Positions 8,782 through 22,554 of a stretch of 34,826 bases of DNA are shown in pieces (position 1 is the first letter of the stretch; every line of letters starts with the position of its first letter). The notes beneath the pieces were generated by a model. That model was given only the letters and a program-made list of their open reading frames with translations. It was not told where the DNA came from and ran no database searches. The translations under genes were made by a program, and so were the position numbers. Source of the stretch: Candidatus Woesearchaeota archaeon (lineage in GTDB: Archaea; Nanobdellota; Nanobdellia; Woesearchaeales; GW2011-AR4); contig JADHVG010000009.1 in NCBI GenBank assembly GCA_016784105.1, positions 1-34,826 of the forward strand. Reading direction: 5' to 3'.

Positions 8782-10305
8782 ATGTCAAAACTAACAATAG
8801 AAGAATTAGCAACTTTCTGCAAGAGTAAAGGTTTTGTTTATCAGGATAGTGAAATTTATGGAGGTTTGTCTGGCTTCTGGGACCTAGGTCCGGTAGGTGT
8901 TGAACTTTTTAATAATCTTAAGGTTGACTGGTGGAAACATTTTGTGCAAAGCAAGGAAAACATGGTAGGCATGCATGGAAGCGTTATCTCTAACCCAAAA
9001 GTTTGGAAAGCATCTGGTCATTTAGAAAATTTTGGAGATTTAGTTTTAGCGTGTTCTAAATGCAATAATAAGTTAAGAGCAGATCATTTCCTGGAAGACA
9101 CTCTGGACATCAATGTGGAAGGTAAGAAATCTGATGAGATAAACGACATCATAACTAAAAACAAGTTGAGCTGTCCTAATTGCAAGGGTTCTTTTAAAGA
9201 ATTAACAAATTTTAATTTACTGTTCAAGACAAGTGTGGGAGCTGAAGAGAGCAAAGGTTCTATCGCTTATCTGCGTGGAGAAACAGCTCAGGGAATGTTC
9301 ACAAACTTTAAGCTCATAACTGAAACTGCAAGAATGAAAATTCCTTTTGGAATAGCCCAGATAGGAACTTGTTTTAGGAATGAAATTGCTCCGAGAGATT
9401 TTATTTTTAGAAGTAGGGAATTTACTATAGCAGAGTTTGAATTTTTTAAGCATCCTGATGAAAAGAAATGTGAAATGTTAGAGGAAAAGCATCTGGATAT
9501 GGAGTTCATGCTGCTTAGTTCTGAAGTTCAAGAAAAAGATAAGAAAGATCTTAAAAAATCAACTATCCGGGAACTTGTAAAAAAAGAGAAGCTTGATGAA
9601 TGGCATGCTTATTGGCTTGCAGAACAAATATCCTGGTTGTATTCAATTGGTTTAAAGAAAAATAATTTAAAAATTAGAGAACACACGAAAAAAGAGCTTT
9701 CTCATTACTCTTCCGCTACCTTCGATATTGATTATTTGTTTCCTTTCGGCTCCAAAGAGATAGCAGGTAACGCAAACAGGGGTCAGTATGATCTTAAACA
9801 GCACATTCAAGAGAGTAAAGAAAAATTAGAGGTATTTGATGAAGCTACCAAACAAAAAATAATTCCTTCAGTGATAGAACCTACTTTTGGTATTGAAAGA
9901 ACATTCTTGTCCATTATAACTGAAGCTTATGAAGATGATAAGGAAAGAGGAAATATTGTCTTAAAATTTAATAATAACATTGCTCCAGTAAAAGTTGCAG
10001 TATTTCCTTTAGTTAACAAAATAAAAAAAGAAGGTAAGGAAGTTTTTGATTCACTAAAAGAATTTTTTACTTGCCAGTTTGACAGTTCTGGAAGTGTTGG
10101 CAGAAGGTATGCACGTGCAGATGAGATAGGGATTCCTTACTGCATCACATTCGATTTTGAAAGTTTGGAAGATAAGTCCGTTACCATCCGAAATCGGGAT
10201 GATACTCAACAAGTAAGAGTTCCGGTTGAAGGTTTAAAAGACACTATCTCAAAACTTCTAAACAAAGAATTGGAGTTTGAAAAAGCTGGTAAGCTGATTA
10301 AATAA
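8782..10305 (+). CDS. glyS: Glycyl-tRNA synthetase (eukaryote/archaea type, alpha2)
   Basis: Class II synthetase charging tRNA-Gly, 507 aa. The N-terminus carries the GlyRS signature KGFVYQDSEIYGGLSGFWDLGPVG. A zinc ribbon is formed by CSKC and CPNC. Motif 2 is GTCFRNEIAPRDFIFRSREF and motif 3 is PTFGIERTFLSII. The C-terminal anticodon-binding domain contains GRRYARADEIGIPYCITFD and the VTIRNRDD-T-Q motif typical of this family. It has its own TATA box and appears leaderless. The identification is secure. Confidence 0.97.
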   Translation: MSKLTIEELATFCKSKGFVYQDSEIYGGLSGFWDLGPVGVELFNNLKVDWWKHFVQSKENMVGMHGSVISNPKVWKASGHLENFGDLVLACSKCNNKLRADHFLEDTLDINVEGKKSDEINDIITKNKLSCPNCKGSFKELTNFNLLFKTSVGAEESKGSIAYLRGETAQGMFTNFKLITETARMKIPFGIAQIGTCFRNEIAPRDFIFRSREFTIAEFEFFKHPDEKKCEMLEEKHLDMEFMLLSSEVQEKDKKDLKKSTIRELVKKEKLDEWHAYWLAEQISWLYSIGLKKNNLKIREHTKKELSHYSSATFDIDYLFPFGSKEIAGNANRGQYDLKQHIQESKEKLEVFDEATKQKIIPSVIEPTFGIERTFLSIITEAYEDDKERGNIVLKFNNNIAPVKVAVFPLVNKIKKEGKEVFDSLKEFFTCQFDSSGSVGRRYARADEIGIPYCITFDFESLEDKSVTIRNRDDTQQVRVPVEGLKDTISKLLNKELEFEKAGKLIK

Positions 10306-10947: not shown

Positions 10948-11370
10948 ATGGAAATAAAAGACTTACAAGCAAGACAAGGAAAAGTAGACATTACACTGGA
11001 CATCGTAGATGTTGGAGATGTTAGAGAATTTGAAAAATTCGGAAAAACAGGACGTGTTGCAAACGCTATTGGTAAAGACGCTTCTGGAGATATCAAAATT
11101 ACTTTATGGAATGATGACATTGGGAAAGTAAAGGCTGGAGACAAGGTCAAAATTGAGAATGGTTATGTTTCTGAATGGCAAGGAGAATTACAATTAGGAA
11201 CTGGTAAGTTCGGCAAGATGGAAGTTATCGGAGAATCTTCTGAAACAAAAGAAGAAGCTACTTCCCCTCCAGATTCTGAAGCTAACAAAGAAACTCTTCA
11301 GGAAGCAGAACAAGAAGTTAAGCAGGCAGAAGAAACTGTTGATGTGGAAGAAGAAGATATTAGTGAATAA
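10948..11370 (+). CDS. OB-fold single-stranded DNA-binding protein (RPA-like)
   Basis: 140 aa. Residues 1-90 form one OB-fold of the archaeal SSB/RPA type, with the features KVDITLDIVDVGDVREF, KTGRVANAIGKDASGDIKITLWNDD and AGDKVKIENGYVSEWQGELQLGTGKFG. The last 45 residues are strongly acidic (Glu-rich), as in the C-terminal tails of many SSBs that recruit partner proteins. It probably protects ssDNA during replication and repair. An AATTTAAATATG element upstream may serve as TATA box, with an ATG about 25 bases later. A tRNA-binding role for the OB-fold cannot be excluded. Confidence 0.85.
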   Translation: MEIKDLQARQGKVDITLDIVDVGDVREFEKFGKTGRVANAIGKDASGDIKITLWNDDIGKVKAGDKVKIENGYVSEWQGELQLGTGKFGKMEVIGESSETKEEATSPPDSEANKETLQEAEQEVKQAEETVDVEEEDISE

Positions 11371-11384
11371 TTCTAAATAGAAAG

Positions 11385-11397
11385 TAATTTAAATTAA
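11385..11397 (+). promoter_or_regulatory. TATA-like box of the tRNA-Phe gene
   Basis: TAATTTAAATTAA is centred about 31 bases before the first base of the tRNA at 11422, the expected archaeal promoter distance. Confidence 0.5.
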
Positions 11398-11449
11398 TTC
11401 TATTTCTGAAAAGTTTAATTTGGGGCCTTAGCTCAGACTGGGAGAGCAC

Positions 11450-11470
11450 ATGCATGAAAATGCAGCTCAA
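11450..11470 (+). other. tRNA-Phe intron 1 (21 nt, position 27/28, non-canonical)
   Basis: A 4-bp central helix GAGC (11444-11447, the 3' strand of the D stem) with GCTC (11465-11468) is flanked by the 3-nt bulges ACA (11448-11450) and AAT (11469-11471). An inner helix TGCAT/ATGCA is capped by a GAAA tetraloop. Cutting after the second base of each bulge gives the stem CTACG. Confidence 0.85.
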
Positions 11471-11480
11471 TACGCTGAAG

Positions 11481-11498
11481 AAATTCAGTATCTCGGTC
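11481..11498 (+). other. tRNA-Phe intron 2 (18 nt, canonical position 37/38)
   Basis: Outer helix TACG/CGTA (11471-11474 with 11500-11503). Central helix CTGA (11475-11478) with TCGG (11493-11496), including one G-U pair. Bulges AGA (11479-11481) and TCA (11497-11499). Cutting after the second base of each bulge leaves G37 joined to A38. The inner helix is weak. A shift by one base is possible in principle because an A occurs at both junctions. Confidence 0.85.
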
Positions 11499-11507
11499 AC
11501 GTAGGAG

Positions 11508-11538
11508 ATTGGCTCAGTCATCTCTGACCATACCTAAA
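11508..11538 (+). other. tRNA-Phe intron 3 (31 nt, variable loop, position 46/47)
   Basis: Central helix TAGG (11502-11505) with CCTA (11533-11536), bulges AGA (11506-11508) and AAT (11537-11539), and an inner imperfect helix including TCAG/CTGA (11514-11517 with 11524-11527). Cutting after the second base of each bulge gives the five-base variable loop GAGTC with C48, able to form the usual G15-C48 pair. Confidence 0.82.
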
Positions 11539-11577
11539 TCCTGGGTTCAAATCCCAGAGGCCCCATTTATTTTTCTA

Positions 11578-20227: not shown

Positions 20228-20800
20228 ATGTTAAACAAAAAAGAATTTATCAAAATAAGGAAAGAACTTAGTGATTCTGATAGTAAAAGAGAAGATATCA
20301 TACAAAAATCCCGAATTATTATCCAAGTATCTAAAAAGATAATTTATGCTTTGCATAGGGGAGATTTAAAGTCTGCTTCATCCTACGTTAAAGATATCGA
20401 AAAAGGCAAAAAGGAATTAGAAAAAATAGATACTTCTCTTGATACTAGTATCAACAAGGTTGCTTTTCAGGAATATGCGGAAGCTCTTTGTTATTATCAT
20501 TTTGTTAAATCTGGAAAGGTTCCTACTGCAACTTCCTTAAAGTTAGATAGTGAAAGTTATTTGCTTGGATTGTGTGATCTAACTGGAGAATTAATGAGGA
20601 AAGCTGTTAATGATGTTATTAAGAAAAATTACAAGTCTGCTTTAGAAATAAAAGAACTTGTTGAAGAGATTTATGGTGAGTTCTTGGAATTTAATTTACG
20701 AAATTCTGAGTTGCGTAAAAAATCTGACCAGATAAAATGGAATCTTAAGAAATTAGAAGATGTTGTTTTTGATCTTAAGATTAAAGGAATGTTAAAATGA
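20228..20800 (+). CDS. Translin-family RNA/ssDNA-binding protein
   Basis: 190-aa all-helical protein of the archaeal translin family (COG2178 type). Characteristic stretches are KVAFQEYAEALCYYHFVKSGKVP, LLGLCDLTGELMRKAVNDV and LRNSELRKKSDQIKWNLKKLEDVVFDLK. These match conserved regions of eukaryotic translin/TRAX and archaeal homologues, which form barrel-shaped octamers and bind or cleave RNA. TRAX-type catalytic Glu residues can be suspected in the FQEYAEA and DLTGEL segments, but nuclease activity is not proven by the sequence. Its stop overlaps the aspS start as ATGA, so the two are an operon. Confidence 0.9.
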   Translation: MLNKKEFIKIRKELSDSDSKREDIIQKSRIIIQVSKKIIYALHRGDLKSASSYVKDIEKGKKELEKIDTSLDTSINKVAFQEYAEALCYYHFVKSGKVPTATSLKLDSESYLLGLCDLTGELMRKAVNDVIKKNYKSALEIKELVEEIYGEFLEFNLRNSELRKKSDQIKWNLKKLEDVVFDLKIKGMLK

Positions 20801-22554
20801 GTTATAGAACACATAACTGTAATGAGCTTAGGAATTCTCATATTGGTAAGTCTGTTGAGCTAGCTGGTTGGGTTCAGTCACCAAGGGACCACGGAGGGAT
20901 TATTTTTATTGACTTAAGGGATAGGTATGGTTTAACACAAATAATTTTTGATCCGGAAGATTGTAAGGAAGCTCACAAAGCTGCCGAACATTTAAGGAGA
21001 GAAGACGTTATTGCTGTTAAAGGAAAAGTTAGGGCTAGGGGCGAAGGTCTAGAAAATCCTAATCTGGATACTGGTGCAATTGAAGTTCTTGTTGAAACTT
21101 TAGATATTTTACACAAAGCAGAAACTCCCCCAATTGAAGTTGAGGATCGAGTTGAAGCTAGTGAAGATTTAAGGTTGAAGTATCGTTATCTTGATCTTAG
21201 AAGGCCTAAGATGCAGAAGCATTTGCTTATTAGACATAAGGCCGCACAAGCCGCTAGAGCTTATCTTAATAGTAATAGTTTTTTGGAAATAGAAACTCCC
21301 ATTCTTGTTCGTTCAACTCCGGAAGGTGCTAGAGATTATGTTGTTCCTTCTCGTGTTAATCCTGGTAAGTTTTATGCTTTACCCCAAAGCCCTCAAATTT
21401 ACAAACAGCTCCTTATGGCTAGTGGTTGTGACAGGTATTACCAATTTGCTCGCTGTTTACGTGATGAAGATCTTCGTGCTGATCGTCAACCGGAACACAC
21501 TCAAATTGATTTGGAGATGAGTTTTGTGCATTCAGAAGATGTTTTGCAGCTTGTTGAGGGAATGTACAAAAACATGATGAAAGAAGTTCTTAATGTTAAT
21601 ATTAAGGAAGCTTTCCCAAGAATTTCTCACAAAGAATCCCTAGCTAAGTATGGAACTGATAAGCCTGATCTTCGTTTTGGTCTGGAATTTATTGATCTAA
21701 CTAATGAGGTTGAGAAGTGTGATTTCAAAGTATTTAGTGGTGCTGAATCCGTTAAGTGTATCAACCCCCCAGATAAGTTCTCCAGAAATGAGATTGATGC
21801 CATGATTAAGTTTGCACAATCTGTTGGAGCAAAAGGTCTAGCTTGGATGAGAGTTACTGATAAAGGTCTGGAAAGCAATATCGCAAAATTCTTTTCTGAT
21901 GACATTCAAAAAGAAATTTTGAAAAAAACAAAAGCTAAACCAGGAAGTATTTTGTTTTTTGTTGCTGATAATGCTAAAGATACAAACAATGTTTTGAGTA
22001 AGGTTAGGATAGAAACTGCTAACAAACTGGGGTTAATAAAAAAAGATGATTTCAAGTTTTGTTGGGTAGTAGATTTCCCAATTTTTGAATATGATCACGA
22101 TAATGAGAAATGGGAAGCTTCCCATCACATCTTTACTGCTCCAAAAAAAGAGCATCTTGAATTTTTGGAGAAAAGTCCTGAAAAAGTTGAAGCTGATTTG
22201 TATGATTTAGTGTTGAATGGTCTGGAACTTGGTTCTGGTTCCATCAGAGAAACTGATCCTTCTGTACAGGAAAGAGTCATGAAAGTGATTGGTTTATCTA
22301 AAGAAGAAGTTCAGAAGAAATTTGGTTTTCTCATGGAAGCATTCAAGTACGGAACTCCCCCCCATGGAGGAATTGGCCTGGGTTTTGATAGAATAGTAGC
22401 TTTAATGTGCGGTTACAATGACATTCGTGAAGTCATGGCTTTTCCTAAGAACAAGAACGCTGAGTGTCCGATGGATAACTCACCAGGAGATATAGATGCT
22501 GCACAACTAAAAGAGTTGCACATCAAGACTGATATTGTGAAGAAGAAAGATTAA
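20797..22554 (+). CDS. aspS: Aspartyl-tRNA synthetase, bacterial type
   Basis: Class IIb synthetase charging tRNA-Asp. At 585 aa it has the long bacterial architecture: an N-terminal OB anticodon-binding domain (SVELAGWVQSPRDHGGIIFIDLRDRYG), motif 2 LRDEDLRADRQPEHTQIDLE, the bacterial GAD insertion between motifs 2 and 3 (about residues 290-415), and a C-terminus with GIGLGFDRIVAL (motif 3) and PGDIDAAQLKELHIK, the bacterial end signature. Archaeal-type AspRS is about 430 aa and lacks the insertion. Horizontal acquisition from bacteria is therefore likely (inference). Whether it is discriminating or also makes Asp-tRNA-Asn cannot be seen here. Confidence 0.96.
   Translation: MSYRTHNCNELRNSHIGKSVELAGWVQSPRDHGGIIFIDLRDRYGLTQIIFDPEDCKEAHKAAEHLRREDVIAVKGKVRARGEGLENPNLDTGAIEVLVETLDILHKAETPPIEVEDRVEASEDLRLKYRYLDLRRPKMQKHLLIRHKAAQAARAYLNSNSFLEIETPILVRSTPEGARDYVVPSRVNPGKFYALPQSPQIYKQLLMASGCDRYYQFARCLRDEDLRADRQPEHTQIDLEMSFVHSEDVLQLVEGMYKNMMKEVLNVNIKEAFPRISHKESLAKYGTDKPDLRFGLEFIDLTNEVEKCDFKVFSGAESVKCINPPDKFSRNEIDAMIKFAQSVGAKGLAWMRVTDKGLESNIAKFFSDDIQKEILKKTKAKPGSILFFVADNAKDTNNVLSKVRIETANKLGLIKKDDFKFCWVVDFPIFEYDHDNEKWEASHHIFTAPKKEHLEFLEKSPEKVEADLYDLVLNGLELGSGSIRETDPSVQERVMKVIGLSKEEVQKKFGFLMEAFKYGTPPHGGIGLGFDRIVALMCGYNDIREVMAFPKNKNAECPMDNSPGDIDAAQLKELHIKTDIVKKKD

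Follow-up and report, generated by a model that had tools for sequence, protein, structure and literature searches.

A predicted three-intron tRNA-Phe(GAA) gene and tRNA-intron turnover in a Woesearchaeota-like DPANN lineage

Introduction

How can a tRNA gene that forms no anticodon arm when read straight through yield a functional tRNA? This question is posed by positions 11422-11565 (+) of contig JADHVG010000009.1, a DNA stretch of 34,826 nt (the window). The Rfam tRNA model, the sole RNA match within the window, reaches 38.7 bits on the unspliced locus and leaves 87 nt unexplained at the place of the anticodon arm. A preliminary description had noticed the missing arm and proposed a tRNA-Phe(GAA) of a DPANN-like genome, split by introns of 21, 18 and 31 nt at tRNA positions 27/28, 37/38 and 46/47. 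Our analysis bears out both structure and affiliation. The locus is a 144-nt precursor gene that holds three introns of the bulge-helix-bulge (BHB) type. It almost certainly encodes a functional tRNA-Phe(GAA), apparently present in one copy, and its host is a tiny uncultured archaeon of the DPANN group. By protein similarity of its glycyl-tRNA synthetase (GlyRS), the host is closest to an archaeal metagenome-assembled genome (MAG) and a Woesearchaeota MAG, the latter being its best named relative; by such protein similarity it is DPANN-like and Woesearchaeota-like.

Predicted excision of three introns restores a canonical tRNA

The locus was analysed with a purpose-written solver that considers all sets of up to three introns under a BHB rule and rates how well each spliced product fits a tRNA. 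The rule demands a 4-bp helix between the last exon bases and the intron end, two 3-nt bulges, and cuts after base 2. The top solution, introns at 11450-11470, 11481-11498 and 11508-11538, scored 66, and the next class-I reading 48. When the middle region was dinucleotide-shuffled 3000 times, no shuffle matched the score of 66; the maximum was 64.

Exon 1 (11422-11449, +) supplies tRNA positions 1-27 with the 5' acceptor strand, T8 and the whole D arm. It is followed by intron 1 (21 nt, 11450-11470, +) at site 27/28, which is supported by the solver, the relatives and an unconstrained fold. Exon 2 (11471-11480, +; positions 28-37) carries the anticodon GAA at 11477-11479 and is separated from exon 3 (11499-11507, +; positions 38-46) by intron 2 (18 nt, 11481-11498, +) at the canonical site 37/38. 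Intron 3 (31 nt, 11508-11538, +) occupies site 46/47; like intron 2, it is supported by the solver and the relatives. Exon 4 (11539-11565, +) contributes positions 47-73, i.e. the end of the variable loop, the T arm, the 3' acceptor strand and the discriminator A. The spliced product is a 74-nt tRNA-Phe(GAA) in which 21 of 21 stem pairs are Watson-Crick pairs, including the five-pair anticodon stem that closes the loop CTGAAGA, exactly as first described.

Orthologues fix the splice junctions

A comparison with relatives, which the preliminary description had suggested, was performed by searching 36 genomes of the window's family with a tRNA-Phe model and fetching the matches. Twelve tRNA-Phe genes with resolved structures were obtained, the window gene (genome G000) included. 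All of them give a 74-nt tRNA with the anticodon arm CTACG-CTGAAGA-CGTAG, and their exons are nearly invariant, while the introns vary or vanish. Altogether, 28 introns were found, one to three per gene, at six sites: 18/19, 27/28, 37/38, 46/47, 53/54 and 59/60 (the D-loop site is 18/19 in the standard numbering with 17a; solver output says 19). The window gene combines 27/28, 37/38 and 46/47. Single introns are present in G001 (37/38, hence neither 27/28 nor 46/47) and G043 (59/60). Two were found in G042 and G002 (18/19 and 27/28, so that G042 has neither the 37/38 nor the 46/47 intron), in G006 (37/38 and 46/47) and in G004 (27/28 and 37/38). Three interrupt the genes of G005 and G008 (18/19, 27/28, 46/47), G039 (18/19, 27/28, 53/54), and G003 and G040 (37/38, 46/47, 59/60).

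The introns of the window gene are thus independently present or absent in this family. Of all the evidence, this comparison is the decisive part. The 27/28 intron occurs in six relatives and is missing from five, whereas the 37/38 and the 46/47 introns each occur in five and are missing from six. Relatives without a given window intron show the exons joined as the splice model predicts. Judged by alignment only, junctions 1 and 3 have no freedom to shift, and junction 2 can shift by one base. Since the window introns are cleanly missing in some relatives, junctions 1 and 3 are fixed to the base and junction 2 within one base. In addition, the inner helix of the 27/28 intron displays compensatory changes at three pairs (T-A to C-G, G-C to A-T and A-T to T-A). 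This lineage is one with a high turnover of tRNA introns: Introns come and go at six sites of a single orthologous gene, whose product nevertheless remains the same. The gene set of the family therefore forms a natural series in which the gain and loss of archaeal tRNA introns can be studied.

tRNA-Phe genes across the order

Beyond the family, 145 genomes of the order were searched and 40 tRNA-Phe genes were fetched. As 27 of these 40 had been picked for looking interrupted, frequencies cannot be read from this set. Thirteen are intronless. The others have introns at 37/38, at 59/60 or in the D-loop, and several are not fully resolved. L201, an intronless gene that belongs to another family, agrees with the window exons along almost the entire stretch of positions 8-65. 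Among the resolvable tRNA-Phe genes of the order, sites 27/28 and 46/47 were not seen outside the window's family, which suggests that they are family-specific. In four tRNA-Phe genes of other families (L193, L194, L195 and L196), the 37/38 introns contain an element like CTGATGAGGC...GCCGATGA that recalls C/D-box or kink-turn motifs; Rfam gives no match to such a family.

Relaxed BHB motifs and a predicted order of splicing

The central helices are completely paired in all three introns. Intron 1 uses GAGC (11444-11447) with GCTC (11465-11468), intron 2 CTGA (11475-11478) with TCGG (11493-11496) including one G-U pair, and intron 3 TAGG (11502-11505) with CCTA (11533-11536). Each helix lies between bulges of 3+3 nt, and each cut is predicted after base 2. 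This part of the motif geometry given in the preliminary description stands; the flanking helices, however, are incomplete. Intron 1 has a perfect 5-bp inner hairpin, TGCAT-GAAA-ATGCA with a GAAA loop, and no outer helix (0-1 outer pairs). Intron 2 has an outer helix of 5 bp, the anticodon stem, which is whole only once intron 1 is gone, and no contiguous inner helix. In intron 3, the inner helix is imperfect and one outer pair is present. The strict hBHBh' motif, in which an outer exon helix and an inner intron helix both flank the bulges, is formed by none of the three. Because of these incomplete flanking helices, introns 1, 2 and 3 are by published definitions relaxed motifs of the types HBh', hBH and HBh', respectively.

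The central helices of introns 1 and 3 tie up exon bases 22-25 and 42-45, which also have to pair in the D and anticodon stems of the mature tRNA; therefore, splicing and folding must be ordered. In the unconstrained ViennaRNA fold, motifs 1 and 3 are present with mean pair probabilities of 1.00 and 0.81, whereas motif 2 is outcompeted in every intermediate tested. In the model, spontaneous folding is thus limited to motifs 1 and 3, and the removal of intron 2 probably comes last or depends on help.

The following pathway can be envisaged. The 144-nt precursor would be transcribed from its own promoter. In each motif, EndA would cleave both 3-nt bulges behind their second base, and RtcB, for which the host genome has one gene, would join the exons to the 74-nt tRNA. 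Introns 1 and 3 would be cut before the D and anticodon stems form or in competition with their formation, since these stems share exon bases with the central helices of both introns. Removal of intron 2, last or assisted, would complete the process according to the folding model.

An additional pairing of 8 contiguous bp is possible between the D-loop (11436-11443) and the 37/38 intron (11491-11498). It comprises 7-8 bases in five of six family members, with a compensating change in G004. Although the pairing looks striking in the fold, its significance is weak within the family (p 0.02-0.3 per gene) and nil outside it.

The host genome is rich in interrupted tRNA genes

The assembly comprises 1.19 Mb in 71 contigs and is 83% complete. 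Since a default tRNA scan of the whole genome had overlooked the window gene, the assembly was read piecewise and scanned with two tRNA models built for this analysis. Among the 33 tRNA genes recognised, the window gene is the only tRNA-Phe; a search for a further tRNA-Phe(GAA), recommended in the preliminary description, found none in this 83% complete assembly. About 23 of the 33 genes are interrupted, with roughly one intron per gene (approximate values, as a few genes are unresolved). For comparison, the values reported with tRNAscan-SE 2.0 are 0.84 (Thermoproteales) and 0.21 (all archaea studied) introns per tRNA gene (PMC8450103). Hence, the intron load per tRNA gene of the host is similar to that of Thermoproteales.

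Two introns each were found in Lys(CTT), Ile(TAT), Leu(TAA), Ser(TGA), Ala(GGC) and Asp(GTC). Three are present in tRNA-Ile(GAT) (L037:5990-6122, -), at 30/31, 37/38 and 43/44. The solver did not resolve Tyr(GTA), Leu(TAG) and Ser(GGA) and resolved Pro(GGG) and Leu(CAA) loosely. In the tRNA-Tyr gene (L080:561-682, -; C1-G72, CTGTAG loop), a long interruption is not accounted for by any simple intron set; nested introns or a weak BHB may be the cause. Four host tRNAs carry a T-loop intron near 59/60 that ends in YGAAAG|T: Ala(TGC) (L042:12137-12240), Pro(TGG) (L065, near 9709-9810, -), Gln(CTG) (L088:7624-7725) and Asp(GTC) (L102, from 2646). They may constitute a shared intron class, their likeness being partly forced by T-loop pairing.

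One EndA gene and relaxed motifs: an apparent conflict

Which enzyme could process these introns? One EndA gene was found in the host genome (locus L027), encoding a protein of about 200 aa. Its closest relative in the PDB is the alpha subunit of Nanoarchaeum equitans (3iey_A, E 1e-39). It is devoid of the Crenarchaea-specific loop (CSL), at whose place it has a 9-residue gap compared to Aeropyrum pernix 3p1z_B, and it is not of the three-unit ARMAN type (epsilon-2, ~390 aa). By gene content, it may be an alpha4-type EndA, a single-unit homotetramer. EndA of this kind is also present in other families of the order, which have fewer interrupted tRNA matches. The L027 protein starts with a lysine-rich tail of about 30 residues; this tail occurs in varied form in several family members and is short or missing in some other families.

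EndA of the lone alpha type is reported to need a stricter motif (PMC6379350) and to be inefficient in removing introns such as these; the loops said to be required for relaxed motifs are missing from the host enzyme. According to the published rule, relaxed motifs require (alpha-beta)2 or epsilon-2 endonucleases. The host genome seems either to break this rule or to have an undetected factor. It is conceivable, although we consider it somewhat less than an even chance, that the family excises relaxed BHB introns from many tRNA sites with a lone alpha-type EndA that has none of the known specificity loops. If so, broad specificity was gained by an undescribed route, and the spread of tRNA introns needed no change of enzyme architecture. 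The window genome offers a direct test of the rule.

The alternative that best survives concerns only the enzyme and is compatible with a genuine three-intron gene: A second EndA subunit might have escaped detection, so that the enzyme would be of the alpha-beta type known from N. equitans. In favour of this, 3iey_A, the nearest relative of solved structure, acts together with a beta subunit, the three motifs are all of the relaxed kind and the genome is incomplete. However, a sensitive profile search of G000 for a second subunit yielded only insignificant open reading frames, and family members have at most one convincing EndA copy each, except G026 with two similar copies. The same query detects the N. 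equitans beta subunit (3iey_B, 1.8e-14); therefore, a similar subunit should have been seen. We regard an overlooked subunit as rather unlikely.

Is the locus a functional tRNA-Phe gene?

Several points weigh against a functional three-intron tRNA-Phe. Transcription, cleavage sites and cleavage order are predictions. Junction 2 is ambiguous by one base from the alignment, and it is the BHB rule that selects 37/38. The sole EndA found is of the type reported to need a stricter motif, an apparent conflict. Finally, the portion of the genome that the assembly lacks could contain another tRNA-Phe gene.

A decayed or chance tRNA-like pseudogene, whose three introns would merely reflect the freedom of choosing cuts, is very improbable: Scores up to 64 were indeed reached in rare shuffles (4 of 3000), but 12 orthologues keep their exons nearly invariant while introns vary or vanish, no other tRNA-Phe was found in the assembly, and both the gene upstream and the promoter motif show conservation. 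Even less credible is another tRNA or one with fewer introns, such as the one-intron Gln(CTG) that ARAGORN reports when introns are allowed, given the score of 48 versus 66, the Gln(TTG) and Gln(CTG) genes elsewhere in the genome, and the orthologous exons of intronless relatives, which read Phe without removal of any intron.

For automated annotation, the preliminary description had expected that ordinary scanners miss or mis-type the gene. This holds for ARAGORN, which makes no call on the window by default, mis-types the gene as stated, and calls Phe(GAA) on the spliced sequence. The archaeal mode of tRNAscan-SE 2.0 was built to detect such intron-bearing genes (PMC8450103). If scanners miss these genes, tRNA counts, a common completeness measure, will be too low in such genomes.

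Relation to known multi-intron tRNAs

Genes of this kind have been known chiefly from archaea of hot springs. tRNAs with three introns are known from Pyrobaculum calidifontis, tRNA-Glu(UUC), and P. islandicum, tRNA-Pro(UGG) (PMC4390854, PMC4090602), and three is the reported maximum per tRNA. Multi-intron tRNAs occur in Crenarchaeota, N. equitans, Methanopyrus, Methanothermobacter, Korarchaeum and ARMAN (PMC4033280). It was therefore overstated that they are established mainly for Thermoproteales, as N. equitans and ARMAN-1/2 are listed, too. Similarly, the 18-nt intron is not unusual: Archaeal tRNA introns measure 11-129 nt with medians of 12-25 (PMC4090602), which makes 18 nt ordinary.

As in Thermoproteales, a single tRNA gene of the host can hold as many as three short BHB introns, which occupy canonical as well as non-canonical sites (PMC4390854, PMC4090602). 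In contrast to Thermoproteales, the host belongs to another phylum and shows only a lone alpha-type EndA without the CSL, and the gene with three introns encodes a tRNA-Phe whose set of intron sites is its own. With N. equitans and ARMAN-1/2, which are known for multi-intron and split tRNAs, it shares membership in DPANN and multiple and non-canonical tRNA introns (PMC4033280). Nanoarchaeota Nst1 is likewise a DPANN member with an alpha4-type EndA by gene content (PMC4033280). However, this EndA type reportedly cuts only canonical introns (PMC4033280), whereas the window genome has many non-canonical ones next to a single alpha-type EndA. No report of such tRNA introns in Woesearchaeota was found in the open literature (subscription journals were outside the scope), where co-mention of 'tRNA introns' and 'Woesearchaeota' concerns group I introns. 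The kind of gene is already known; new are the Woesearchaeota-like DPANN lineage, to which three-intron tRNAs are extended, the intron turnover and the apparent conflict between motif and EndA.

Genomic neighbourhood

Upstream of the tRNA gene, the window encodes an OB-fold single-stranded DNA-binding protein with an acidic tail (10948-11370, +; NCBIfam/Pfam matches). Most orthologues of the tRNA-Phe gene, too, are preceded by a gene that ends in an acidic tail of this kind. Between the two genes lies a putative promoter, the BRE (B recognition element)/TATA-like sequence GAAAGTAATTTAAAT (11380-11394, +), whose TATA-like part is located 28-34 nt upstream of the tRNA; a promoter-like motif (C)GAAAGTAATTTAAAT is found upstream of most family orthologues. 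Synteny was also sought via GlyRS relatives, which returned three loci with no tRNA nearby in any. Further downstream, at 20797-22554 (+), the window encodes a bacterial-type aspartyl-tRNA synthetase among genes that are otherwise archaeal.
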